This document shows, piece after piece, positions 24,397 through 38,707 of a stretch of 64,000 bases of DNA. A program made the translations under genes and the position numbers. The notes under the pieces are model-generated. The model ran no database searches. It saw nothing but the letters and a program-made list of their open reading frames with translations, and was not told the origin of the DNA. The DNA comes from Fuerstiella marisgermanici (GTDB lineage Bacteria; Planctomycetota; Planctomycetia; Planctomycetales; Planctomycetaceae). The stretch lies in NCBI RefSeq assembly GCF_001983935.1, contig NZ_CP017641.1, positions 6,791,001-6,855,000 of the forward strand, written 5' to 3'. Numbering within the stretch: position 1 is the stretch's first letter; each line of letters starts with the position of its first letter.

Positions 24397-24834
24397 TCAG
24401 TCGGCAGCAAGGCTGTTGAAGAACTCAACATAAGCCTTGATGTCGAGATCCTTGGTTTGGAAACCATCGGCTCCAACCTCAGTTGCCTCTTCCATATCTC
24501 TGGGGCTATCAGAGTTGGACAACACCACAATAATCGGAATCTGCGAAAACTCGCGTTCCTGTCTCACACGTTCGACAATTTCGAATCCGTCGAGTGCCGG
24601 CATGTTCAGATCCATGAGCACCATCGCCGGCAGTGTTTTCTCTCCCAGCTTGACTTGTGCCATGTACTCAAGAAATTCAGTTCCGGACAGGAACGTTAGG
24701 AATGGATTTCTAAGTATAGAACGGTCTTACAGGCGACGAGCAATATCGAGATCTGCCTCTGAGTCATCCACCATGACAACAGGGGCACGGTGGTTGAGGC
24801 ATTTAACGTTATTTTGATTCACTGGCCTGGCCAT
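24397..24834 (-). pseudogene. Rcp1-like single-domain response regulator with in-frame TAA
   Basis: A complete receiver in one reading frame apart from one TAA at 24729-24727. Before the stop: APVVMVDDSEADLDIARRL, with the acidic pair. After it, without any frame change: DRSILRNPFLTFLSGTEFLEY, MVLMDLNMPALDGFEIVERV (phospho-Asp), PIIVVLSNSDSPRDM and ADGFQTKDLD (conserved Lys). Total about 144 codons, the size of Rcp1-type regulators. The start (ATG 24834 or GTG 24822) overlaps the upstream kinase stop, the usual pairing of Rcp1 with its kinase. A codon for Tyr at the TAA would restore it. Either a recent nonsense mutation, a sequencing error, or readthrough; the conserved downstream half argues that decay, if real, is very young. 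Confidence 0.8.
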
Positions 24835-26707
24835 TGAGAGTGAACTTAAAGTGAACAAAGTCTTCGCCGGAATCCAGCCAGATTTGCCCGGAATGTCGTT
24901 CAACAGCGCGGCGACATAGCGAGAGCCCAGTCCCCGTGCCATCTTCGTCATTGGTGAGTCTGGTGAACAGGTTGAATACTGACTGGTGGTGTTTGGTTTC
25001 GATTGAAGAACCCGTGTTCCGAACGCCGAGGATGGGGCCATTCTGTGAATCTTCTACCGTAAACCGTAGTTCAAAGCCTGCCTGCTTTGCGTATTGAACA
25101 GCATTTTCTACCAGCTTGCGATAGATCAATTGAACGAGGCTTCGATAGCAACTGACCACCGGCAGCGATTCGACGACTACAACAGCCTCCGTGCTCTCGA
25201 TTTTACTCTGAAAATTATCGAGAATTTCTTCAACAACAGATCTTAAATTGACGTCTTCGCGGACGAGGAATTCGTCGCCGATACTGGTGAAGATTCGGAA
25301 ATCCGCAATCTGCTGGAGGGCTCGATTACATTCCCGTTTCATCGTTTCTATGAGCGGTGCCGTTTTGTTCGAGTCGGATTCACTTATGTCGTCGATGACC
25401 AGGTTCGACAGAGTTGCGATGCGTCTGATGGGTTCTCGCAAATTGTGCGAGGCGATATGGGCAAAGTGTTCCAGGTCCTGATTGGCCAGCCGAAGTTCTT
25501 TGTTCGTGGACAGTAACTCTGCCTCGTGACTTAGCAGGGATTCTCGCATGTCCTGAAAAGACCGCGCCAGCGAACCCAGTTCGTCGTCTCTTGCTACCGG
25601 TAAGCTATTCGTCGACCTGCCAGCGCGAAGAGCTTCGACGGCGACTGCGATATTTGCGATTGGTCGCGTCAAGCGTTCTGAGAGTGCGAAGGCAAACACC
25701 ATACCGATGACAAGCATCGCCGCTACGATCAAGCCCGTGTGGAACGTGATTGTGTTGGCAGCCTGACCGATGTCTTCAAAGGTCGCGAATACTCCCAGCG
25801 CGAGTTCGCGATCCGTCGAAAATGGTCTGAGCTTCCGGAAATGCACTGAGGAGCCGCGGGGCAATTCTGGATTCTGTTGAGGGAACGTCAGCGAAGTTGT
25901 GTCGCTTTCGAAAAACTGTTCCAGTTGATGAAAGTCGCTTTGGGCTTTGGCCTCGTGTCCAAGATCGAAGCCGAACGTTTGTGACTTGTCGGGGTGAAAG
26001 ATGTAGTCCCCATGATCATCGGTGAGGTAGTAGACATATCTGCCATCAGCGTTTGAGGGCAAGTGCTTTTCTGCGAACGGCTGGAAGTCGAGGTTGATTA
26101 TCACGATGCCGGCTGGGCGCTCGTCGGCATCAAATATCGGCATCGCCACGCGCAGCATGGGACGATGCGGGATTTCGATCTGGCCTTTCTCCCGATTCAG
26201 ATTGATTCGCGAGTAATAGATCTGGTCACGCGGAAGGGCGATCGTTTCCTGAAAGTACAGTCGTTCACCCTTCCGTTGCAAATCTGATTCGGCGGGACGA
26301 AAAATCTTATTGTCCACTCGGTCGAGCCGCACGCGTTCGCGACCTTCGTCCTGCACACCGATCAACCGGACCTGTGCGTAGTAGGGTTTGGCTCTAAGCA
26401 TCTCTGCGAAAATGCTGGCGAGCTGGTCCCTGGTCTCCGAGTCCGCCGCGGTGCTGTCGTCTGCCTCAGCATCAGCAAGGATGTTCTTAACGATTGGTAG
26501 TCCGGCTAACAAGCGGATGTCGTGACTGATCTCATCGAAGGCGAGCGACAACCTGTCTTCGCTGATCGTGGCTTGTCGTTGAAGGCCTTCAATCTGAAGC
26601 CCCTCAATGATGCTCATGTATCCCCAAATCGCTGACGCGGCGATACCAATCGACGATGCCGCGACAAGGCTGAGAACGAGCAGGCGAATTTTCTGAGCAA
26701 TACGCAT
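24809..26707 (-). CDS. Membrane sensor histidine kinase, dCache/HAMP type
   Basis: 632-aa kinase. A first membrane helix (about residues 9-31) is followed by a large periplasmic sensor with RPMLRVAMPIFDADERPAGIV and RYVYYLTDDHGDYIFHPDKS, which is the pattern of a double Cache domain binding small ligands. The second membrane helix is near 322-345, then a HAMP stretch, then the H-box HFAHIASHNLREPIRRI with the phospho-accepting His near residue 419, and a HATPase_c domain ending GTGTGLSLCRRAVERHSG. The H-box with SHNLREP is of the phytochrome-like branch, whose partners are Rcp1-type regulators such as the overlapping downstream gene. The G-box is shorter than usual. Confidence 0.9.
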   Translation of the reverse strand: MRIAQKIRLLVLSLVAASSIGIAASAIWGYMSIIEGLQIEGLQRQATISEDRLSLAFDEISHDIRLLAGLPIVKNILADAEADDSTAADSETRDQLASIFAEMLRAKPYYAQVRLIGVQDEGRERVRLDRVDNKIFRPAESDLQRKGERLYFQETIALPRDQIYYSRINLNREKGQIEIPHRPMLRVAMPIFDADERPAGIVIINLDFQPFAEKHLPSNADGRYVYYLTDDHGDYIFHPDKSQTFGFDLGHEAKAQSDFHQLEQFFESDTTSLTFPQQNPELPRGSSVHFRKLRPFSTDRELALGVFATFEDIGQAANTITFHTGLIVAAMLVIGMVFAFALSERLTRPIANIAVAVEALRAGRSTNSLPVARDDELGSLARSFQDMRESLLSHEAELLSTNKELRLANQDLEHFAHIASHNLREPIRRIATLSNLVIDDISESDSNKTAPLIETMKRECNRALQQIADFRIFTSIGDEFLVREDVNLRSVVEEILDNFQSKIESTEAVVVVESLPVVSCYRSLVQLIYRKLVENAVQYAKQAGFELRFTVEDSQNGPILGVRNTGSSIETKHHQSVFNLFTRLTNDEDGTGTGLSLCRRAVERHSGQIWLDSGEDFVHFKFTLNGQASESK

Positions 26708-27069
26708 TGCAATGCACCAAGTCGCATTTCTTCGCCTGAGTGATTTCGATACCCGAACGCTTCATGCTATTGGAACGAAATAAAGCGGCTAAGTCGAGCG
26801 CAGGCGCGGCGGGCGTCCCTTGGTGACAGACGTCTTTCACTGAGAAGAACGCCTATTGGAGCCGGCGCGGTGGAGCTTGGTCTGCAGCGGGTGCGAAGAG
26901 TCGACCGACACGGAATAACGTGGGCCGTCAACCGCTGCCAAGGTGCTGCCACAGTGCTCAAGCACTGCCAAGCCATCGACGAACTGGATTCGAGGTCTGA
27001 CCGCATAAACGTTTCGGTCACTGATTTGTCGCGACTGTGCAGTCGTTTGATCTTCCAGCCACGCTATCT
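26708..27069. other. 362-bp gap inside the signalling array
   Basis: Separates the single receiver (ending 27070) from the dCache kinase. Minus-strand frames here (for example 26767-27021) have no recognisable domain. The kinase and its overlapping receiver therefore probably have their own promoter in this interval. Confidence 0.4.
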
Positions 27070-27474
27070 TTAGATCACCGCATCTGGAGCTGGGCTAGCT
27101 GTCAGATTCATGCTGGCTTCGATAGCAGCACAGAGTGTTTGAGAGTCGCAGGGTTTGTGAAAGACCCGAGTTACTCCGAGTTCAGCGACAGCGCGTTCTG
27201 CGTTTCGATCCAGGATCGTACCGCTCAGCATAAAGCGTTTAACGTCTGGGAATCGGGTTCGTATTCCTGCAAGAAACTGAAAGCCTGTTGTGCCGGGCAT
27301 TTCGTTGTCGCACACAAGGGCATCAATCTTCGTGCTGCCCAATATTGCGGTCGCTTCTGCCGCAGAGATCGACGTCGTGACGTCGAATCCGTACTCGTTG
27401 AGTTGACGCGACAACGCTCGCAGGAGTGACGCATCATCATCAAGTAAAAGTACACGTGGCATTGAGTCGTTCAT
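27070..27474 (-). CDS. Single-domain response regulator (CheY-like)
   Basis: 134-aa receiver without output domain. RVLLLDDDASLLRAL gives the acidic pocket, DALVCDNEMPGTTGFQFL the phospho-accepting Asp near residue 57, FMLSG the switch Ser position, and VFHKPCDSQTL the conserved Lys. All residues needed for phosphorylation are present. A GGAG lies upstream of ATG 27474; ATG 27462 is an alternative. It follows the receiver/HD-GYP-like gene by 33 bases and is probably the last member of the upstream operon. Receivers of this style (CDNEMPG, HKPCD) are usual beside HDOD and HD-GYP regulators. Confidence 0.9.
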   Translation of the reverse strand: MNDSMPRVLLLDDDASLLRALSRQLNEYGFDVTTSISAAEATAILGSTKIDALVCDNEMPGTTGFQFLAGIRTRFPDVKRFMLSGTILDRNAERAVAELGVTRVFHKPCDSQTLCAAIEASMNLTASPAPDAVI

Positions 27475-27507
27475 GTCGCATCATCTCCAGGATTGGTTGT
27501 GGTTAGT

Positions 27508-28650
27508 TCAGGCTGTTGTGAAAACATATATCGGTTCTTTGACGTTATTATTGCTCGCCATCTTCGACAGAATGCCGATCATCGATCTGGTAATTTCCTG
27601 ACCCCGCCCGACAAGTAATCCGCCGGACTTGTTCAGGATGTCCTCGGACACCACCATTCCCGTACGTAGCTGGCACACGTTTAACTTCATCAGGCTGGCC
27701 GAAAACAGCTGCTTGAATGCTGCTTCGAATGCGTTCAGGACGTCAGGGTCATACTTGTGAGCGTCTTCTTTTAGAAGGTCCAACGCTTCGACTTTGTTTT
27801 TTGTACGTGCTTCATGACTGTCAAAGTCGAGACACACCTTTAGGATTCTTGCACCGAGCGGTATGTCCGTGCCACGAATGCCCTCCGCAGGTGCCCCGGT
27901 GCCGTCAAAGCACTTTTCCTGATAGCCAACGATTCGTGCGACGTCGGACAGTCGCGGTATGTTGCCTAGAAGGCTTTTCCCGATGGCAGGGTGCTGGTCA
28001 AACGCCACACGTTCCAACGCGTCCAGTTCCTGACCGTTCATGATTTTTCTTAAGGTCGATTCAGACAGAGTGATGCAACCCAGGGCGGACATCATCGCGG
28101 CAATCTCGATCTCCCAAAGGTTGCCCGCGCCCAGTGATGCTGCGAGAGCCATGGCAATTCTCTTCACTCGAGACGCACGCCCGAAGGCAATGGGATTGAC
28201 GATTCCCAACACGTCAAACAGTACTTTGACACTGCCCTTCAGCGTGCATTCAAGCAATTCCCGCTCAGCCGTCACGAGTTGATATTGTCGAATTCCGTCA
28301 CTAACGGTGGCAGCCATAGTTTCCATTGAGCACGGCTTGGAGAGGAAACGAAAGATGTTTCCTTCGTTGACCGCTTCAATGGTGGAGTTCAGATCTGCAT
28401 AGCCCGTCAGCATGACTCTAACGGTGTCCGGAGATTTCTGTCTGATAATCTTGAGCATCTCGACGCCTGTCATCCCCGGCATCCGCATGTCGGAGATAAC
28501 AACGGCGAATGGGCCATCTTCGTCAACCATTCTCAGGCCAGCAGATGGTCCATCCGCAGTGTACAGATCAAAATCGTCCGACAGATGACGATCGATCGCA
28601 CTCAAAATTTTGGAATCGTCGTCGACGAAAAGAATTTTGGGCTCACTCAT
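27508..28650 (-). CDS. Response regulator with degenerate HD-GYP-like output domain
   Basis: 380-aa protein starting at ATG 28650, preceded by the strong ribosome-binding site AGGAGGAG; the frame itself runs upstream to 28677. The receiver (about residues 4-120) is complete: ILFVDDDSK, VVISDMRMPGMTG, MLTGY, FLSKPCS. The output region (about 150-335) follows the HD-GYP plan, with DQHPAIGKSLL and YQEKCFDGTGAP, but the metal-binding HD pair is absent (MMSALGCI where LLHDIGKI is expected) and the HHE of the second motif is YQE. Cyclic-di-GMP hydrolysis is therefore unlikely, and the domain may bind a ligand or a protein partner. Five bases separate it from the HDOD gene. Confidence 0.82.
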   Translation of the reverse strand: MSEPKILFVDDDSKILSAIDRHLSDDFDLYTADGPSAGLRMVDEDGPFAVVISDMRMPGMTGVEMLKIIRQKSPDTVRVMLTGYADLNSTIEAVNEGNIFRFLSKPCSMETMAATVSDGIRQYQLVTAERELLECTLKGSVKVLFDVLGIVNPIAFGRASRVKRIAMALAASLGAGNLWEIEIAAMMSALGCITLSESTLRKIMNGQELDALERVAFDQHPAIGKSLLGNIPRLSDVARIVGYQEKCFDGTGAPAEGIRGTDIPLGARILKVCLDFDSHEARTKNKVEALDLLKEDAHKYDPDVLNAFEAAFKQLFSASLMKLNVCQLRTGMVVSEDILNKSGGLLVGRGQEITRSMIGILSKMASNNNVKEPIYVFTTA

Positions 28651-28655
28651 ATTGG

Positions 28656-29825
28656 TTACTCCTCCTGACTTAGGCAAAGGTCACGCCAACTGGCAATCTT
28701 GCCTTCGCATTCAATCGTTGCCAGATACTCGGACAACTCCTGGTCATCTGCCCCATTGGCGACTTCGTTGGCAGCCCACACAACGGATAAAACAGACAGG
28801 GATTTTTCTTCGGCCTGTTCAGGACGATGGTGCAGGGACACAACCTCAATAATTGACTGCGGCAGCCCCCACAAATTCAACAGGTAAGCGCCAACAGCCG
28901 CATGATCGGTGTTAAGAAATTCATGTTCTGCTTCCCACAGCGAAGTGTGATTTGAGGCGGCTGTCTGAAGGATCCGGCTGTATGCTTCGGTGTCTGAAGT
29001 TGCAAGAATCAGCTTTCCCACGTCATGAAGCATGCCCGCAGTGTAGGCGTCGTTGACATCACCGCCTGCCATGCCCTCCGCTCGTGCAATTTGCTTAGCG
29101 AAGTTGGCAACGTTCAGACTATGAGTCATTAGTGTTTCCAGCGAAAATTCGCTTCTTGAATCATCAACGAATTCTGTGAAAACACCGGTCGTCAGGACCA
29201 GAGCCTTAATAACATCGACACCCAGCATACAAGCGGCCTGCCCCGGCGAATGTACCTGCTTTCCCATGCCAAAGGCCGCAGAATTGACCAACTGCAGAAT
29301 CTTGGCGGACATCGCCATGTCCTTTTCGATGATGCGGCCGACGTCCGTTAAGGCAAAGTCTTCAGACTGAATCGCTGCGTTTAGTTCTGCGTAGACTGAC
29401 GGGATGCTCGGCAGTCCCGGGAGATTAGTTATCGTCTTCCTGAGGCTTTCCGAATTTAGGGTGTCGCGCATCGCGCAGGCTCGCGATATCGTTGATTTCA
29501 GAGTCTCGGCATCGCACGGCTTAGAAAGATATTGGTGCATCGGTTGCACTGCGCGAAGGACGGCTTCCTTGTTGGCTTGGCCGGAAAGCACAATTCGCAC
29601 AATGTGGGGATAGAGTTTGCTGACTTCGTGCAGCAGCTCCGCACCGTCCATTCCGGGCATTCGCATGTCCGTGATAATGGCATCGAAGTCTTCGTTTGCC
29701 AGCATCTCTAACGCTTCTGTTGCGTCATTTGCGAATTCCGCCTCCCACTCAACGTCGGCAGCATCCAGCATTCTTTCCAGGGCACGCAGCACCTGGGGTT
29801 CATCATCGACGAATAAGACGTTCAT
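28656..29825 (-). CDS. Response regulator with HDOD output domain
   Basis: 390-aa protein. ATG 29825 overlaps the preceding kinase stop as ATGA; the open frame starts five codons earlier. The receiver is complete (VLFVDDEPQ, AIITDMRMPGMDG, VLSGQ, YLSKPCD). The HDOD domain begins near residue 135 with LPGLPSIPSVYAELNAAIQS, then DMAMSAKILQLVNSAAFGM, and it retains an HD pair in MLHDVGKL near residue 268, which many HDOD proteins lack. HDOD proteins are regulatory scaffolds in chemotaxis, biofilm and stress signalling. With the degenerate HD-GYP protein immediately downstream, the two outputs may act as a pair. Confidence 0.9.
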   Translation of the reverse strand: MNVLFVDDEPQVLRALERMLDAADVEWEAEFANDATEALEMLANEDFDAIITDMRMPGMDGAELLHEVSKLYPHIVRIVLSGQANKEAVLRAVQPMHQYLSKPCDAETLKSTISRACAMRDTLNSESLRKTITNLPGLPSIPSVYAELNAAIQSEDFALTDVGRIIEKDMAMSAKILQLVNSAAFGMGKQVHSPGQAACMLGVDVIKALVLTTGVFTEFVDDSRSEFSLETLMTHSLNVANFAKQIARAEGMAGGDVNDAYTAGMLHDVGKLILATSDTEAYSRILQTAASNHTSLWEAEHEFLNTDHAAVGAYLLNLWGLPQSIIEVVSLHHRPEQAEEKSLSVLSVVWAANEVANGADDQELSEYLATIECEGKIASWRDLCLSQEE

Positions 29826-31627
29826 GTAAGCACCGCGCAATCACTTTGAGCTGAAGTGGCTGCCGCCTCATCAGCTGGAATCTCCATTGGTAGTTCGATA
29901 ACGAAACGAGTTCCGACGCCTTCTTCTACGTGAAAAGTGAGTCGGCCTTTGTGTTTCTGGGTGACGACAGAGTGGGCTATGGAAAGTCCCTGTCCGGTTC
30001 CTTTTCCCACGTCTTTCGTGGTGAAGAACGGATCGAACACACGGTCGCGGATTTCTTCCGGAATCCCACCTCCCGTGTCACCGATCTCAACAACGACATG
30101 CGTATCTGTTTGGTGGCTTCGAATTGTGATCAAGCCTTTTCCTGTACTCCCGCCGTCTGTCATGTCGCTGATTGCGTGTGCAGAATTGACGATGAGGTTC
30201 AGGAAGACCTGGCTTAGTTCCCCTGAAAGGCCCAGCAGGCCTTCAATTTGCGGGGCCAGTTTCAGGTCGACGTCTGCGACGTATTTCCATTCGTTGGTGG
30301 AAACAGTCACTGCTGTTTCAAGGAGGTGATTGATATCGACGGGCGATTTTTCCTCAACACCAAGGTGTGAGAGTTCTTTCATCGCTCGGACAATGCGAGA
30401 TACATGGCGGACACCGTCGATTGAATCGCTAAGCGCTTCGGGCAGTTGGGTGTACAGCTTCGTCAGCTTGAGCTTTTTTTGCTGAGCCACCATCCTGTCA
30501 GCCAGTTCAGCTTCGAAATCTGATTTCTGTGCTAATTCGGTGAGTTGCGTTGAGGACTGAAGGTAGTCGATCAAGCGATCAAATTTTGACTTCACGAAAT
30601 CCAGGTTGTCCCCCAGGTATTGCATGGGGGTATTGATCTCATGAGCAATTCCGGCGGCCAGTTGTCCGACCGACTCCAGTTTTTGAGCCTGCTGTAGTTG
30701 CTGCTCAACAATGCGCCGATCCGTCAGGTCCGTACCAAGGACAAGCAAACCATGGCACTTTCCGTCGTCCAGCACCGGGTAACAGGACAGACCAATTACC
30801 ATGCTCCTGTTATTGGAATTGACAAAGGTGGTTTCGAACCGGCTTGTCGCTTGAGCTTTTGAACTTCGAAAGAATTCCTGCACTTTTTCCGGGCTGTCCC
30901 AGCGTATCGGCAGCTCGGGCAGGGGCAATCCCAGGACTTCTTTTTCGGTCAGCTCGAGCAAGTCGGCGGCTCGGTGATTCCACCGTTTGACCTTCAGGTC
31001 TGCATCAACACCAATCAGCACGGAATCAATCGCGTCCAACAAACGATCCGCGTCCCGTTGCGCCAATTCCAGGTCTCTGGTCCGCTCAGCAACCAGATGC
31101 TTCAGCTCTTCCTGGCGCACGGCGACGGCTCCGGCAAGGCGGTGCTTTTCGACCAGAGCCATTACCATTTGAAGGACTTCAGCATTGTCAAATGGCTTCT
31201 TTAAAATCAATAGGCGATCGCACTTCCCCAGACGCTTTGCGATATCGTTCCATGTGTTGTCTGAGTGAGCGCTACAGATGACGACCTGAAGGTCAGGATC
31301 AACCTCCCACATTTTTTCGATGGTTGTGAGGCCGTCCCAACCGGGTGGCATTCGCATGTCGACGAAGGCCATGACGTACGGTCGACCGGCGGTGACGGCT
31401 TCGCTCACGAGGCGTAGTCCATCGGCCCCCTGAAAAGCGGAATCGAGTTCCACTTCCACTGTCTCAATGCTTTCTGGTGATTTCTCACCAAAAAACGCAG
31501 AAGCGGCGGTGGTCAATTCGGTATTGGATTTGCGAGCCCCTAAAATTTTTTGGAAGTCTTCATGAATGGCAACGTTGTCATCGACGATCAGGATCCTTGG
31601 ACGTGGGGCAGGCGTTGGAGGCAGCAT
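29822..31627 (-). CDS. Hybrid sensor: N-terminal receiver, PAS and histidine kinase
   Basis: 601-aa cytoplasmic protein with no membrane segment. The N-terminal receiver (about residues 10-165) is long: [18 protein letters not shown], then an insertion before [12 protein letters not shown] and ILKKPFDN; the family of receivers with [10 protein letters not shown] is specific to such hybrids. A coiled linker ([20 protein letters not shown]) leads to a PAS domain (about 205-310). H-box [19 protein letters not shown] has its His near residue 328 and belongs to the HEINTP branch. The HATPase_c domain ends [30 protein letters not shown] in two halves of the usual G1/F-box order. It takes input on its own receiver, so it probably relays from the two upstream kinases to the HDOD/HD-GYP receivers. 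Confidence 0.92.
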
Positions 31628-31711
31628 GTTTTCATCTTTCGTCTGGTCGAAGTAGAGTTTCGATCTGCAGCGCGCCGCAGACCAGATTGCGGCGCGACCA
31701 TTTGTTCGTAA

Positions 31712-34063
31712 TTATTGGGCTACAAGTTTGGCGGAAGGCATTTCAAGATCTGGCGAATTGTGGCCAGCGTCGGATGCATGGTCAGCCCCGAGTGGCAGGA
31801 ATAGCGAAAACACAGATCCTCGATTGATCCCGTCGCTACGAACGTGCAGTTCACCGCCGAGAGCCTTGGCAGCCTGTGCACATGAGTGCAGGCCGAAGCC
31901 ATGGCCGTCGCGTTTGGTTGTGAATCCAAAATTCAGCACTTTTGAAACGACGCTCTCCGTCATTCCAACTCCGTTGTCTTCCACGATAAATTCAACGCGT
32001 TCGTTGTTCATCGTACGCGTTCGGACGGTGACAATTCTTGGTCGTCCAGTGATGTCCGCCACCGCATCCTGTGCGTTCGCGATAAGGTTTGTCAGCACTT
32101 GAAGAATTTTGTGACGATCGGATAAGACGGTTGGGCAATCGTCGATTTCCGTTTGAATCTGTATTCCGCTTTTCGCATGCCGACTCTCACAAATCTGCAC
32201 TGCCTGATTCATCAATTCGACGGGAGATTCCGGCAACCGAACAGGAGATGCAATGACCTCTTCCTGTTGGACACGGATGATTTCTCGAATGTGCTGAATT
32301 TGTTCAATTAACCTGCGGTTCTCATCTTTGAGTTGCGTCTGGTCATCGATTAACGCAGATGAAACCTGTTCCAGAAATCCAGGAAAGTGGACGCCGCGCG
32401 GGTCGTTCGTCAGGAAGTCTTCGAGGTCTTCAGCATGTTGGCGCAGGATTTCGCTGGCTGCTGCCAGTTGCGAAACGGCACTCTGCTCAAGGATTTTGGA
32501 AATGGCCCCTGACGATGTCGTGACGCTGTTCAGGACGTTACCGACATTGTGCAGAACACCAGTCGCCACTTCCGCTATTCCCGCTTTGTGAGACGATTCA
32601 ATCAGTTGCCGATTGATGTCAGCAATCTGTGTTTCGGATTCCATTCTCGCGGTTTCGTCATGAGCGATAATGGTAAAGCGGGTCTTGCTGTCGACGCTGA
32701 CTCTTCCGATGGAAATGCGGCATGGGAACACGGTTCCGCTCAACCTGCGACATCGTGCGGTAAGGTCGTTTCCGTCATGCGTGGTGTCTTTCGCAGCTTC
32801 GACAAGATCTTCGAATCGAGCATTCACCAGCAAAGCATCGATGGGCAAATTCACCAACGATCGTTTCCATTCGAATACCGTGTGAGCCGCGTGGTTAGCT
32901 GCCAGAATCGTGCCAGCTTCCGACACTGACAAAATTGCTTCGGACGCGTTTTCCAGAATGGACCGAGTCCAGAGTTCGCTTTCACTCAGTTCTTTTGTCA
33001 TCCGATTGGCAATGGCCAAAGCATTTTCTCTCTGTCGCCCGAGGCCGGAAATAACTGCGAACAAAAGCATGTCAATCGTCAGCCCGCCACACACAACCCA
33101 CGAGCTAAGAGAAGACTCACTGCCCGATACAAACTTCGGCTTCGCCGCAATTTGAAGTGTCCATTCGCGTCCGGATAGCGTGACAGGTACCTGAGCATAC
33201 AGATCTCCGGGAGGTTCCGGCCGATCGCCGTCAAGATTGGATTCACTATTGAACAGCAGGTTTGGTTCAGAAGTGACCCTGCCATCGAAGATACGACACT
33301 CAACATCTGCCACGGATTCATTGATCGTCCCTCGCATCAGATCATCGCATCGAAACGCAGCATACACCCACCCGCGGAGTGCGGTTTTTCGCTGGGCAGG
33401 AGTGTCAAGATTTGCTTCGTTTCGGTAAACAGGCAGGTAGCACAACACCCCTGCCTGAACGTCCTCATCAGTTTCCTGAACGAGTGTGATCTTTCCGGAA
33501 ATGGCCGGAAATCCGCTGCTGGCGGCGGTATCCATGGCTTTGCGGCGAGTCGCATCAGAATACATGTCGTATCCAAAGGCGCGACGGTTGCGCCAGTCAA
33601 ACGGTTCGATCAGAACAATGGCTGTGTAGTCCTCTCGATCTCCCTGGGGAGTCACCTGGTAGTCAGGAAAGCCTTCCGCACGCACCGCGGCGACGTGAGC
33701 TGCCAGTTGTTTCTGTGGCACAGGGACAGCAAACCCCATCGCCTGAATGCCAGGAAAGTACCGTGGGAGACGGCAGTGCTTCACGTAGTTCGCCCAAGCC
33801 GTTCGGTTGACGTCGTCAGTAGCGCTGAACAGGCTGACGCCGCCTCGCAGGACCTGCTCATACTCCAACATACGCTCGCTAATGCGACTTTGAATTTCCG
33901 AAACACGAAAGGCGAACCTTTCGCGGTGCCGCTGTGCAACATGAAGGTTGGTAAGATGCCACGCCAAAAATGTCAGCAGCAACGATCCGCACAGGATGAT
34001 GCGCGCACCATTGCGACTATGCGCAAGCTGCAAAATGCGGCTGAATTTTGAAATGGCGTTCAT
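31712..34063 (-). CDS. CHASE-PAS sensor histidine kinase with LHNVGN H-box
   Basis: 783 aa from ATG 34063; the frame is open to 34219 but the extension lacks features. A membrane helix near residues 22-42 is followed by a periplasmic CHASE domain (about 65-300, with PGIQAMGFAVPVP and the DREDYTAIVLIEPFDWRNRR block), a second helix near 320-345, a PAS domain (about 365-490), and a kinase core. The H-box reads EVATGVLHNVGNVLNSV, with the His near residue 508 followed by NVGN instead of E-x-RTP. The ATPase domain ends TTKRDGHGFGLHSCAQAAK. Both unusual motifs are shared with the kinase just upstream. CHASE domains sense extracellular small molecules. Confidence 0.92.
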   Translation of the reverse strand: MNAISKFSRILQLAHSRNGARIILCGSLLLTFLAWHLTNLHVAQRHRERFAFRVSEIQSRISERMLEYEQVLRGGVSLFSATDDVNRTAWANYVKHCRLPRYFPGIQAMGFAVPVPQKQLAAHVAAVRAEGFPDYQVTPQGDREDYTAIVLIEPFDWRNRRAFGYDMYSDATRRKAMDTAASSGFPAISGKITLVQETDEDVQAGVLCYLPVYRNEANLDTPAQRKTALRGWVYAAFRCDDLMRGTINESVADVECRIFDGRVTSEPNLLFNSESNLDGDRPEPPGDLYAQVPVTLSGREWTLQIAAKPKFVSGSESSLSSWVVCGGLTIDMLLFAVISGLGRQRENALAIANRMTKELSESELWTRSILENASEAILSVSEAGTILAANHAAHTVFEWKRSLVNLPIDALLVNARFEDLVEAAKDTTHDGNDLTARCRRLSGTVFPCRISIGRVSVDSKTRFTIIAHDETARMESETQIADINRQLIESSHKAGIAEVATGVLHNVGNVLNSVTTSSGAISKILEQSAVSQLAAASEILRQHAEDLEDFLTNDPRGVHFPGFLEQVSSALIDDQTQLKDENRRLIEQIQHIREIIRVQQEEVIASPVRLPESPVELMNQAVQICESRHAKSGIQIQTEIDDCPTVLSDRHKILQVLTNLIANAQDAVADITGRPRIVTVRTRTMNNERVEFIVEDNGVGMTESVVSKVLNFGFTTKRDGHGFGLHSCAQAAKALGGELHVRSDGINRGSVFSLFLPLGADHASDAGHNSPDLEMPSAKLVAQ

Positions 34064-34152
34064 GGAAATACCTACGCGAAAACTCTGTTCCGACGTCCTA
34101 TACATGAGAGAAGTGCAGATTCCACGATCCAAAATGGGACGAGTGTTCTTCG

Positions 34153-36087
34153 CTATTCTGTTCGCTCCGGTACTGATTCGCTTATCGTGGGCAGGCGAAG
34201 CACAAACGTGGCTCCGCACCCCGGCCCGTCACTCTGGGCCGAAAGAGATCCCCCAAAATCCGCGGCGGTAATCGCGCTTGAGTGCAAGCCGAATCCATGC
34301 CCACCTGACTTATTCGTGAATCCAGGCTTGAACACCATGCCCAATTCTTCGTTCGAGATTCCGACCCCTTGATCAATGACAGCGATACTTACCGAGTCAT
34401 CCTGTGTTTCAATGCTTACCGTCAGTTGTTTGTTATCGAGGCTGCTTTTGCTCATCGCTTCTTTGGCGTTAGTCAGCAGGATCGTCAGCACGTCCAAAAC
34501 TCGTTGCCGGATCGCTCGCACTGGCGGGACGTGCTGAAATCTGGTGACAACATGGATTTGATGCCGTTTGAATGCTTCATCCTGCATGGCAAGCGCGGTG
34601 TCCGTCAGCTTTACCAGGTCAATGGGTTCGCGGCATTCTTTCTGGCCGGCAAACGTTTCGTGTGAGGCGACGATATCTTTGATGTTCTCGATGCTCTCCA
34701 TAAGCGTTTGCACTTCTTTCATTCCATCCGTCCGTTCTGCCAGCAACTGATTGGATAGTTCGCCCAATAGCGTGGGGAAGTGCTTCCCTTGCGGATCGAC
34801 TGTCAGGAATTTGCCAAGGTCGTCAGCATGCTCTTCAATCACATGCGATGCTTTTTCGAGGTGAACGACAGAGCTTCCGGACAGCGACTCACGCAGTACT
34901 CCGGCCGCGACATTGATGCTGTTCAGTGCGTTTCCAACATTGTGCAGGACGCCTGTTGCGATCTCGGCTCTGCCAGCCACGCGTGCTGCCGCTCTTAGCT
35001 CTTCATTCAGCCGTGCGCGCTCACGTTCGGCCTCACGTGCAGCTGTGACATCACGGCCAATCTGAATCATGCCAACAAATTGCTCGTCTTTGTCAAAGAT
35101 GGGCCGCATCTCAATTTGAATGGATATCTCACGCCCATCTTTTCTTCGTTTGTGGACCTCAACATCGAATGGTCGCTGATTTTTGACACCATCCAGCATT
35201 GCTGTCACTGTTTCCTCACGGGTGCTGGGTCCGCGTAGGACTTCGATGGGACTGTGGCCGATGACTTCAGTGTCCCGATACCCGGTTATTCTGGTGAAGC
35301 CATCGTTGACCCATTCCACTCTTCCAAGGCTGTTCAGGATGATCACCGAGTTATCGGTGTATTTGGCGACAAGCGCGAGTCGCTCTGCATCCGCCCGTGC
35401 CGTCTCCAGCTCTATTGTTCTGCGCCGCACGGTTTCCTCGATATCACTATTAAGTGATTCCAGTTCAGCCTGTCGGTCGCAAACTGAGCTTACGTCCTGT
35501 TGTGACTTCATAATGTTGAACATCAAAAAGATGTCCTCGAAAATTACCCACGCAGCGTGCTCCAGCCAGCGATATGGACTGGCTGTTGTCAGGCCGTACA
35601 CGGATAAAGGCCACCAGATACCTCGCAAAGCATGGTCCATCGTGATGACCACTGTTGTTGCGACCAGCACTTTCCAGTCTCTGTAGAACGCGACGAAAGC
35701 CAGTGATCCAAAAACGTGAAAATGAGTTTCCAGGCGGCCACCCGATAGATGAATCAGCAACGCGCTCCAAAGCCCCTGCGACACGGCCATCATTAGCCGA
35801 CTCTGCTGACTTCCCGGATTTAGCCAGACGGCAACGATTGGCCCGCCTGAGATTAATCCACCCAGCAGAAAAGCGGCCCAGATATGAATATGTACGTGCG
35901 ATGTCTGGCCAATCCAGGTCTTTGGCGAGATCAGGCATGCGGCGACAATACCGCACACGAACTGGACAACCATCAGTGCAACGAACAAACGATCGACTCG
36001 CGTACAGTGCTCCCGATTGAGTTGCTCGCGTAAGTCGTTTCGTCGTTGGATGTTTTCCGGGTTCAGGCAGACAGGATTGCTACTCAT
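34153..36087 (-). CDS. His-rich multi-TM PAS histidine kinase with LHNVGN H-box
   Basis: 644-aa kinase. The first 190 residues hold about five or six membrane helices with many His residues: HVHIHIW, ETHFHVFGSLAFVAFYRDW, TMDHALRG and LEHAAWVIFEDIF. This His pattern suggests a heme or metal centre in the membrane, which I infer but cannot prove. A coiled linker leads to a PAS domain (about 240-360, VNDGFTRITGY, IEMRPIFDKDEQFVGM), then the H-box EIATGVLHNVGNALNSI (His near residue 383), and a HATPase_c domain ending NKSGGHGFGLHSSA. Its ATG overlaps the stop of the thioredoxin-like gene as ATGA, linking the two. Confidence 0.92.
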   Translation of the reverse strand: MSSNPVCLNPENIQRRNDLREQLNREHCTRVDRLFVALMVVQFVCGIVAACLISPKTWIGQTSHVHIHIWAAFLLGGLISGGPIVAVWLNPGSQQSRLMMAVSQGLWSALLIHLSGGRLETHFHVFGSLAFVAFYRDWKVLVATTVVITMDHALRGIWWPLSVYGLTTASPYRWLEHAAWVIFEDIFLMFNIMKSQQDVSSVCDRQAELESLNSDIEETVRRRTIELETARADAERLALVAKYTDNSVIILNSLGRVEWVNDGFTRITGYRDTEVIGHSPIEVLRGPSTREETVTAMLDGVKNQRPFDVEVHKRRKDGREISIQIEMRPIFDKDEQFVGMIQIGRDVTAAREAERERARLNEELRAAARVAGRAEIATGVLHNVGNALNSINVAAGVLRESLSGSSVVHLEKASHVIEEHADDLGKFLTVDPQGKHFPTLLGELSNQLLAERTDGMKEVQTLMESIENIKDIVASHETFAGQKECREPIDLVKLTDTALAMQDEAFKRHQIHVVTRFQHVPPVRAIRQRVLDVLTILLTNAKEAMSKSSLDNKQLTVSIETQDDSVSIAVIDQGVGISNEELGMVFKPGFTNKSGGHGFGLHSSAITAADFGGSLSAQSDGPGCGATFVLRLPTISESVPERTE

Positions 36088-36737
36088 AACTGACCTCCCG
36101 GGCCACTTGGGTAAATCGTGCAGCCATAGGTTGGGTAATGTCTGTTCTGAACATCGCGTCCGTTAAGCACGTCGATGGCTGCGGCGTAGGCTGTAGAATC
36201 GCCTTCGTGTCCGCGCCCCGCTGTGATACCACCACTGAATGAACACTGACCATCCTCATCGAATACGATGACATGGCCGGACGTCGTTGCGTGAAATTGC
36301 TTCGCCTCTCGTCCGTCAGAATCAACCAGAAGGTTGCCGGGGCTAATCGCATTTGCGCTGTTCCACATATCCGATTGCGCCCAGCTGTCTGTTTGCTGTG
36401 CCGGCTTGTAGAAAACGAACTTGATAGCGACTGGTTCAGCGACGCTTGCCATCATCTGCTCAAGTTGCCGGAGCGCAGAACGACTACAAGGACAATGAGG
36501 GTGAAGAAACATCAGTAGCGTTCGTTTATGAGTGGAAGGAGTCAGCTGTGTATCCTGTGGCCATCGGTCCAACATTGTCGCCCCCGGCCCCGGAGCATTT
36601 GAATACGCTGTCAAAGCTCCAATGCCAGCCAACACGACCAACAACCAACTCCCTAGAACCGCTCGCACGGCCCAGCGACGGATGCGATCAGTTTGCAGTG
36701 CCGAGTGGGGACTCGAGAGTTTGTTGGTACTGGACAT
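36084..36737 (-). CDS. Membrane-anchored thioredoxin-like protein with CxC motif
   Basis: About 217 aa from ATG 36737; the longer frame to 36806 adds 23 residues before the same helix. One N-terminal membrane helix (AVLGSWLLVVLAGIGALTAYS) positions a thioredoxin-like domain outside the cytoplasm. The active-site region is LLMFLHPHCPCSRSALRQLE, where CxC replaces CxxC. GHVIVFDEDGQCSFSGGITAGRGHEG is a strand pattern seen in similar proteins that I recall being annotated as RedB-like. A further Cys occurs near the C-terminus in YPTYGC. It is the first gene of the signalling operon and its stop overlaps the His-rich kinase start, so it likely reports or adjusts the redox state of that sensor. Confidence 0.78.
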   Translation of the reverse strand: MSSTNKLSSPHSALQTDRIRRWAVRAVLGSWLLVVLAGIGALTAYSNAPGPGATMLDRWPQDTQLTPSTHKRTLLMFLHPHCPCSRSALRQLEQMMASVAEPVAIKFVFYKPAQQTDSWAQSDMWNSANAISPGNLLVDSDGREAKQFHATTSGHVIVFDEDGQCSFSGGITAGRGHEGDSTAYAAAIDVLNGRDVQNRHYPTYGCTIYPSGPGGQL

Positions 36738-37660: not shown

Positions 37661-38707
37661 CTATCCCTGCTTCTGCAGCTCTTCCGCCTTCTTCTTCAGC
37701 TCGGCTGCTTTTTTGATCGTTTCTTCGGACTTCTTCTTTGTGTCCTCGATCTTTTTGGCGGCGGCGTCAGCAGCTTTTTTGGCGTCGTCGGCCGCTTTCT
37801 TTTTGGCTTCCAGGGCCTTCTTGGCGCCCTCGGCGGCCTTCTTGGCTTCTTCGACAGCCTTCGTGGTGTCCGCAACAGCTTTGTTGGCGGCATCAACCAC
37901 AGCCTTTGGTGCATCCGCATTCTTCTTCAGATCTTCGACAGCTTTCTTAGCACCTGCCAGAGCCTTTTCGGCAGCAGCGACGGCTTTGTCTGCGGTCGCA
38001 GCGACGGCGTTTTCAGCATCAAACGCCTTCTTGGCCTCCTCGGCCTTCTTCGCGGCTTCGGCAGACGCTTTTTCTGCGGCGGGGATTGCAGCGGCCAGTT
38101 CTTCGACTTCTTTGGCCGCGTCCTCAGCAGCTCGGCCAGCTTCGACAATCGCTTTCTCGCGGTCGCGTTTGAAGTCGGGCACAATTTCAATTTCCGGCAA
38201 CGCGGCTTTCAGTTCTTCCTCGCCCGCTTCAGTTACCTTGGTCTGCCAGACGAACAACTTTTTGAGGTTCTTCAGGCCGGCGAGTTCCTTTAATGCGGCG
38301 TCAGTGACGGCGGTGCCGTAAACATTGAGGTATTCCAGCTTTTCCAAGCCCTTTAACTGAGCGACTCCGGCATCAGTCACGGCCGTCTTTTCAAGATGCA
38401 GCCTCGCCAGGTCTTTGAGACCCGCCAAATGAGCCAATCCTGCGTCAGTGACCTTGGTGCCGCGCAGATTCAACGCGTACACGTTGCCCGCGCCGGCCAG
38501 AATTTTGAGCGTGTCGTCGGTGATCTCTTTGTCTGACAAGTGGAAGGCGATTGTCAGTCGCGTGTCGTTTTGAGCCAGTTGCATGGCCTGGCCGCCCGCG
38601 TCGGTCACGGCCTTGATGAGTGCTTTGTCGGCATCAGAAAGTTCTTCCTGAGCGATTGCGGGCACAACGGTAAGTAGACTGAGCAGCAGAATTGAGGCGG
38701 GTTTCAT
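37661..38707 (-). CDS. Secreted leucine-rich-repeat protein with Ala/Lys coiled-coil tail
   Basis: 348 aa with a signal peptide (MKPASILLLSLLTVVPAIAQ). Residues 55-170 contain about five leucine-rich repeats of the pattern VTDAGLAHLAGLKDLARLHL, one every 23-24 residues, as in the planctomycete LRR proteins. Residues 185-348 are a low-complexity helix of Ala, Lys and Glu (for example AAKKAEEAKKAFDAE), predicted to form a long coiled coil and resembling histone H1- or TolA-like sequences. The combination suggests a protein-binding head on an extended periplasmic rod. No partner gene is adjacent; the mla operon diverges 300 bases away. Long frames on the plus strand here are shadows of the biased composition. 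Confidence 0.85.
   Translation of the reverse strand: MKPASILLLSLLTVVPAIAQEELSDADKALIKAVTDAGGQAMQLAQNDTRLTIAFHLSDKEITDDTLKILAGAGNVYALNLRGTKVTDAGLAHLAGLKDLARLHLEKTAVTDAGVAQLKGLEKLEYLNVYGTAVTDAALKELAGLKNLKKLFVWQTKVTEAGEEELKAALPEIEIVPDFKRDREKAIVEAGRAAEDAAKEVEELAAAIPAAEKASAEAAKKAEEAKKAFDAENAVAATADKAVAAAEKALAGAKKAVEDLKKNADAPKAVVDAANKAVADTTKAVEEAKKAAEGAKKALEAKKKAADDAKKAADAAAKKIEDTKKKSEETIKKAAELKKKAEELQKQG

Follow-up and report, generated by a model that had tools for sequence, protein, structure and literature searches.

In a window of 64,000 nucleotides from the planctomycete Fuerstiella marisgermanici (contig NZ_CP017641.1, positions 6,791,001 to 6,855,000 of the forward strand), nine signalling genes, here called g1 to g9, follow one another on the minus strand from window position 36737 to 24397. 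The first two encode a membrane-anchored thioredoxin-like protein (g1) and a histidine kinase with a histidine-rich membrane sensor domain (g2), and genes of these two types lie side by side in distantly related bacteria while the output part attached to the sensor domain varies. A REC-HDOD gene and a REC-pseudo-HD-GYP gene (g5 and g6) constitute a second conserved unit, which is repeatedly joined to kinases of the g2 type. The reading that we favour, with moderate confidence, is that g1 and g2 make up an accessory sensor in the periplasm, gated by redox state or a metal and resembling SenC/RegB, which would drive a phosphorelay into regulators that do not bind DNA.

Linkage of the thioredoxin-like gene and the membrane domain

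The g1 gene (36084 to 36737, minus strand) encodes a membrane-anchored thioredoxin-like protein with an HPHCPC motif (H79, C82, C84) and a C-terminal cysteine, C206. The product of g2 (34153 to 36087, minus strand) has a histidine-rich, six-helix membrane sensor domain at approximately residues 1 to 230, followed by a PAS domain and a histidine kinase with an LHNVGN box; g2-type membrane domains are labelled 4TM in what follows, despite their six helices. Both g1 and the membrane domain occur once in the F. marisgermanici genome, a single contig of 8.92 Mb that also contains eight HDOD matches. A g1 search of 58 genomes, namely this genome and 57 relatives, found it in 21, and nearly every match was followed by a g2-type N-terminal membrane domain with a varying kinase part. 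When pairing is read from coordinates and fragments of the same gene are joined, 27 of the 28 thioredoxin genes in this set have a 4TM gene as neighbour, and a thioredoxin gene is the neighbour of 27 of the 34 4TM genes. The sole unpaired thioredoxin gene (G001:C467) is followed by a receiver protein. Thioredoxin or 4TM genes with stops or frame changes were also seen (G001:C51, G002:C45, G004:C11), reflecting either decay or assembly errors.

A collection of species representatives was searched with the membrane domain alone, which gave at least 555 confirmed matches from at least 587 pattern matches. The best 80 of these 555 or more, picked blind to the thioredoxin gene, span Planctomycetes, Verrucomicrobia, Acidobacteria, Omnitrophota, Melainabacteria, Hydrogenedentota, Chloroflexi, Phycisphaerae and Bacteriovoracaceae, among others, and 78 of them have a g1-family gene directly upstream on the same strand. 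This count comprises 73 loci identified by script (within ∼1.2 kb), four identified by inspection (L107, L127, L143, L145), where an over-long open reading frame had masked the thioredoxin gene from the script, and L142, where the end of the thioredoxin gene is visible at the contig edge. In the other two loci (L094, L096) no thioredoxin gene stands beside the 4TM gene, and a strong copy is present elsewhere in each genome. A first-pass annotation of the window had read the nine genes as parts of one system, and for this pair the adjacency upholds the implied co-conservation. A pair is also present in a metagenome-assembled genome (MAG) titled Euryarchaeota (L073), perhaps a mislabelled or contaminated bin.

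Among 114 genomes of the phylum that includes the Bacteriovoracaceae MAG L133, 22 contain a 4TM domain; the strong matches there (L179-L182) are paired, as is a split copy (L190/L200, in G071). Seven weak, distant 4TM matches (L194-L199, L201) are preceded by a small protein whose N-terminus is hydrophobic and whose C-terminus carries Gly-Cys; it contains CxC in six cases (it is lost in L201) and exceeds the cut-off of the family DUF6436 in three (L194, L197, L199). In one locus (L202:646-1293) a SCO1/SenC gene (E 3.6e-25) fills the thioredoxin slot immediately before the gene of a distant 4TM kinase, and a receiver gene comes after that kinase.

Conserved residues and predicted structure

H79, P80, C82, C84, D139 and C206 are invariant in all 75 thioredoxin-like proteins compared, as are E120, H122, H152, E176 and H177 in all 81 membrane domains, where H66 is kept in 79, H68 in 76, H113 in 80 and H124 in 79; no cysteine is invariant in the 4TM domain. 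Profile and fold both identify g1 as thioredoxin-like, its nearest solved folds in a fold search being 2ywi, 3u5r and 2cvb, and hydropathy indicates a hydrophobic N-terminal anchor. The Pfam scan placed g1 in no family above cut-off: DUF6436 (PF20029) reached 17.3 bits against a cut-off of 27.3, and there was no match to SCO1/SenC (PF02630), the motif being HPHCPC instead of CxxxCP. For the 4TM domain, no sequence match was found in the PDB and no credible Pfam match among 25 members scanned, which hit six families, one member each, with a best E of 0.011.

AlphaFold models had a predicted local distance difference test score of 94.7 for g1 and 90.1 for the membrane domain, the latter being modelled as six long helices, in keeping with six hydropathy peaks of which two overlap. 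If the kinase is taken to lie inside, the predicted topology would bring the helix ends with H66/H68, H113, E120, H122/H124, H152 and E176/H177 to the outer face of the membrane or close to it, the side on which the anchored thioredoxin domain would lie.

Co-variation and module exchange

In the 67 of the best 80 loci for which the thioredoxin, 4TM and kinase sequences could all be used, pairwise distances correlated at 0.66 between thioredoxin and 4TM, at 0.33 between 4TM and the kinase of the same chain, and at 0.30 between thioredoxin and kinase; the bootstrap difference between the first and second of these values was 0.24-0.41. H-boxes assigned by pattern in the best 80 were HExRTP-like in 34, LHNVGN in 22, AHEINTP in nine, HELKNP in one and of other types in 14. 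Furthermore, in an Acidobacteria MAG (L110:8250-10499) the 4TM domain is fused to GGDEF-EAL instead of a kinase, with a thioredoxin gene upstream. The correlations, the varied H-boxes and this fusion indicate that the pair is the constant part of these systems and the output the variable part. The H-box shared by the first two kinases of the array, which had been singled out as odd, is indeed common to g2 and g3, but as LHNVGN occurs in 22 of the 80 4TM proteins it is not peculiar to them.

Linkage of this kind might also reflect operon hitch-hiking, in which g1 and g2 are passed on as one block and their products do not interact functionally. Tight overlap and co-inheritance would by themselves raise distance correlations, and some 4TM genes lack a thioredoxin gene, including those of two genomes (G014, G033) without a match at E 1e-15. 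Passive inheritance is nevertheless improbable, as kinase cores, hybrid receivers and neighbours have been swapped while the pair persists, and the genomes of the two detached genes (L094, L096) retain a strong thioredoxin match elsewhere. Nor do other neighbours recur: a scan of 97 of 119 upstream and 72 of 88 downstream unlabelled open reading frames, each trimmed to at most 330 residues and with signalling-labelled frames left out (those omitted by hand were mostly short or overlapping), found nothing recurrent among flanking non-signalling genes, any one Pfam family being common to at most three of the 97 upstream and two of the 72 downstream genes.

The HxH motif (H66 plus H68) is present in 72 of the 79 paired rows of alignment A4 (81 rows minus L094 and L096) and in 23 of another 25 paired rows, and in four of 17 unpaired rows. 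The 25 comprise 22 rows from relatives, at least four of whose genomes were already in A4, and three from the L133 phylum; the 17 comprise ten from the L133 phylum, L094, L096 and five of the seven unpaired genes from the 58 genomes, two having no locus. Eight weak, distant matches and the split copy L190/L200 are left out of the count. All four unpaired rows with HxH come from genomes with a thioredoxin gene elsewhere, as does L241, yet the latter lacks HxH. The motif was rejected as proof of docking, the Fisher p of 3e-8 ignoring shared ancestry, and the link between HxH and the thioredoxin is suggestive only, because few independent events are found on the tree.

A second conserved unit of REC-HDOD and REC-pseudo-HD-GYP genes

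The unit is represented in the window by g5 (28656 to 29825, minus strand), encoding a REC-HDOD protein that retains its HD residues, and g6 (27508 to 28650, minus strand), encoding a REC-pseudo-HD-GYP protein. HD, HHE and GYP are the catalytic motifs of HD-GYP phosphodiesterases; g6 retains neither the HD nor the HHE residues and does not carry the motif set of such an enzyme. Both have also been lost in eight of 11 HD-GYP-like regulators compared (L068, L072, L075, L080 at 7055, L100, L105, L134, L135) and are retained in three (L066, L080 at 3664, L137); the comparison was drawn from the best 80 loci, in which the matches of L077 and L141 were too weak for inclusion. In two loci (L134:10554-11723, L135:8771-9952) the HDOD partner has lost its HD residues as well, so that neither protein appears to be catalytic in these loci.

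A profile of the dead HD-GYP type (A5), built from g6 and eight degenerate relatives, detected it in seven of the 58 genomes at E 1e-45, and in all seven a REC-HDOD gene adjoins the pseudo-HD-GYP gene. The cluster includes a 4TM kinase in five (G000, G003, G032, G035, G038) and a PAS kinase in G044; in G005 the contig begins within the HDOD gene, and a g7-like receiver (45% identity) comes after the pseudo-HD-GYP gene. An Opitutaceae MAG (L068, a verrucomicrobium) has genes for thioredoxin, a 4TM kinase that is 42% identical to g2 across 624 amino acids, REC-histidine kinase, REC-HDOD and REC-pseudo-HD-GYP in the order of the window, with no CHASE gene among them. Counterparts of g1, g2, g4, g5 and g6 are also grouped in L039/L075, a planctomycete from a different family, and those of g1, g2, g5 and g6 in L052/L105, L042, L100, L134 and L135. 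An HDOD and/or HD-GYP regulator is in view in 13 of the 80 loci, whose flanks often end at contig edges. On a quick tree of 4TM domains, linkage to the output unit requires eight changes for nine linked rows, which implies either repeated joining or repeated loss.

These data largely refute, for g1, g2 and g4 to g6, the view that the array is nine unrelated signalling genes that are merely neighbours in a signalling-rich planctomycete genome, a view that we regard as very improbable. It draws on the parts of the array that do not recur: a CHASE kinase stands near the pair in just two of the 80 loci (L087, L090), a kinase and Rcp1-like receiver comparable to g8 and g9 follow a 4TM kinase only in L042 among the labelled loci of the 58-genome set, g9 is interrupted, and a gap divides the array. 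The other parts are conserved in distant genomes, which shows that their grouping is not a mere accident. The proposal of the first-pass annotation thus holds beyond the pair, for a thioredoxin, a 4TM kinase, a REC-PAS-histidine kinase and the two output regulators, but not for the whole composition, from which the CHASE kinase drops out.

Layout of the gene array

The genes that complete the array, all on the minus strand, encode a CHASE-PAS-histidine kinase with an LHNVGN box (g3, 31712 to 34105, start picked by eye), a REC-PAS-histidine kinase with an AHEINTP box (g4, 29822 to 31627), a lone receiver (g7, 27070 to 27474), a Cache-HAMP-HisKA kinase (g8, 24809 to 26707) and a receiver with an internal stop (g9, 24397 to 24819, start picked by eye). 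Pfam matches behind these assignments are PAS and HATPase_c in g2, following the unnamed membrane domain; CHASE (E 6.9e-65) and HATPase_c, with a weak PAS, in g3; REC, PAS and HATPase_c in g4; REC and HDOD in g5 (E 1.5e-54; PF08668, 184.9 bits with a cut-off of 22.9); REC and HD_5 in g6; and REC in g7. The g8 protein has HAMP, HisKA and HATPase_c, with dCache_1 at 43.7 bits, just below its 45-bit cut-off, and HK_sensor_dom_bact at 63.4, above its own; the portion of g9 past the stop, a protein that we take to resemble Rcp1, matches Response_reg. HATPase_c is above cut-off in g2, g3, g4 and g8, whose H-boxes were placed by pattern, and acceptor aspartate motifs were recognized by pattern in g5 to g7 and by eye in g4 (FVDMRMP) and the C-terminal piece of g9 (LMDLNMP). 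No DNA-binding, GGDEF or EAL domain was found in the Pfam scan of the array proteins, in line with the earlier proposal that the outputs are of HDOD and HD-GYP-like type and not DNA-binding.

The stop of g1 and the start of g2 share a four-base ATGA overlap (36084 to 36087), as do g4 and g5. The gap between g2 and g3 is ∼47 nt with the g3 start placed at the ATG of 34105; a GTG at 34219 is a possible alternative start, with which the two genes would overlap. The g3/g4, g5/g6 and g6/g7 gaps are 84 nt, 5 bases and 33 nt, and g7 and g8 are 362 nt apart. An in-frame TAA at 24729-24727 lies inside g9, which is therefore either broken or mis-sequenced. Given the 362-nt gap and the interrupted g9, the likely operon is g1 to g7, probably read as a single transcript, and g8 and g9 are probably a separate, partly broken unit. 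The domains given for the nine genes in the first-pass annotation were confirmed, but the array breaks after g7, and of the ATGA or five-base overlaps described at its joints, the ATGA overlaps stand and the g5/g6 joint proved to be a gap.

A GC-rich hairpin in the g3/g4 gap (31671 to 31696) was rejected as a terminator, having no T-run on the minus (transcribed) strand and a fold z of only -1.29; other possibilities are a processing site and a repeat element. A promoter scan found five sites compared with 8.1 in shuffles, and such patterns tell little in planctomycetes. Upstream of the array, on the same strand, lies a gene for a repeat-bearing protein with an Ala/Lys-rich, coiled-coil-like tail (37661 to 38707, identified by eye).

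Proposed mechanism and its alternatives

The g1-g7 operon would consist of two portable units, A (g1 and g2) and B (g4 to g6, here with g7). In unit A, g1 would be held in the inner membrane with its thioredoxin fold facing the periplasm and would report redox or metal state, as suggested by the HPxCxC motif, the invariant C206 and the SCO substitution; the signal could be the redox state of the periplasm or else a metal, with copper as the leading candidate. Docking of g1 on the six-helix domain of g2, with its outward histidines, may then alter the state of g2, the signal passing from the HPxCxC site to the HxH and E-x-HFH histidines. Judging from their domains, g2 and perhaps g3 would supply phosphate to the receivers, unit B would receive it from such input kinases, and g4 could integrate receiver input with that of its own PAS domain. 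The g5 and g6 proteins might act by protein contact, g6 as a non-catalytic regulator. A phosphorelay with outputs that do not bind DNA is a sensible reading of the gene content. A broader and more tentative proposal is that the pair represents an as yet undescribed class of metallo-redox sensors, extracytoplasmic and distributed across phyla, in which the HPxCxC protein would hand metal or electrons to HxH and E-x-HFH, as a module in many kinases and at least one cyclic di-GMP enzyme, the relay ending here in a dead HD-GYP and an HDOD protein.

Several observations weigh against the accessory-sensor reading. Seven 4TM genes in the 58 genomes are unpaired (G003:C27, G004:C11, G014, G032:C17 at 143805, G033, G035:C14, G039:C10), G014 and G033 being the genomes without any thioredoxin match at E 1e-15, and in G032 it is the unpaired kinase that is linked to the REC-HDOD and pseudo-HD-GYP genes. 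Ten 4TM loci of the L133 phylum (L183-L189, L191-L193) have no thioredoxin match, their genomes showing weak matches in eight cases (E 3e-10 to 1e-13) and none in two. Since such unpaired genes exist, the membrane domain can work alone. The seven distant 4TM matches are without HxH in the alignment, adjacency changes five times on a 117-row tree, so that a sign test on independent pairs cannot reach 0.05, and the flanking genes scanned gave no copper or respiration hint. Structurally, helices four and five are poorly separated by hydropathy, and matches of the membrane-domain fold in the PDB are weak, the best being ImcA (8wcn, E 0.07).

Alternatively, g1 could be a maturation factor that loads a metal or keeps a cofactor site reduced, leaving the membrane domain to sense quinone, light, gas or heme state. 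This is possible, if rather unlikely. It fits the retention of E120, H122, H124, H152 and H177 in proteins without an adjacent thioredoxin (L241, L183-L189, L191, L193, L235), most core residues persisting in unpaired 4TM genes although L236 and L192 have lost some, and it fits the L202 locus, SenC being reported to bind copper, with a chaperone activity proposed for it (PMC9147068). With no invariant cysteine, however, a role of the 4TM domain as thiol client is improbable, and the ten L133-phylum kinases persist in genomes with weak matches or none to the putative maturation factor.

Comparison with known systems

No description of the thioredoxin/4TM pair was found in full-text literature searches judged by titles and abstract openings, a coverage outside which most subscription papers fall. 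For a sensor domain without a Pfam name, the gain of a nearly fixed partner gene makes function testable; a pair that stays constant while kinase cores are swapped around it clearly exemplifies a portable input module; and the recurring REC-HDOD/REC-pseudo-HD-GYP pair offers a defined setting for learning the role of an HDOD regulator.

The 2cvb/2ywi thioredoxin-like family and DUF6436 (PF20029) have the fold and the C-terminal Gly-Cys in common with g1, which differs in falling below the DUF6436 cut-off, in its hydrophobic N-terminal anchor and in having HPxCxC at the active-site position. ImcA of Pseudomonas aeruginosa (8wcn) resembles g2 in having six helices ahead of a cytoplasmic signalling domain (template modelling score 0.50 by query length), but with E 0.07, 11-13% identity and no sequence match to the 4TM domain, and the word thioredoxin does not appear in the main text of the ImcA paper (PMC10904736). 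RedC-F of Myxococcus were considered as relatives and rejected, the redCDEF passages of the source consulted mentioning no thioredoxin partner (PMC3018481).

The nitric-oxide systems NosP-NosK-NosR and H-NOX/HnoK-HnoD likewise combine an accessory sensor, a kinase and a REC-degenerate HD-GYP protein (PMC12570481, PMC6335343), and g6 bears a likeness to the model of NosR. NosR is phosphorylated by NosK under an accessory sensor (PMC12570481), and HnoD, a degenerate HD-GYP protein, is said to suppress the HnoB phosphodiesterase through direct interaction (PMC6335343). NosP is a FIST protein that binds heme, and no membrane span is predicted for NosK (PMC12570481), whereas g1 has a membrane-anchored thioredoxin fold and g2 is a membrane protein; in addition, the array has no EAL regulator, and both g6 (263.4 bits) and g5 (147.9 bits) fall below the 400-bit cut-off of the NosR model NF053512.

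RegB spans the membrane several times and has a quinone motif and a redox cysteine. In RegB-SenC-RegA (PrrB-PrrC-PrrA) of Rhodobacter, as in g1 and g2, a periplasmic thioredoxin-fold protein is encoded with a membrane kinase, and SenC beside RegB (PMC9147068) is the closest precedent for such a partner. The differences are that g1 has no SCO1-SenC match and CxC instead of CxxxC, and that the array ends in HDOD and pseudo-HD-GYP outputs and not in a DNA-binding regulator such as RegA. The pair and its array are nonetheless of a known kind, that of a kinase with an accessory periplasmic partner.

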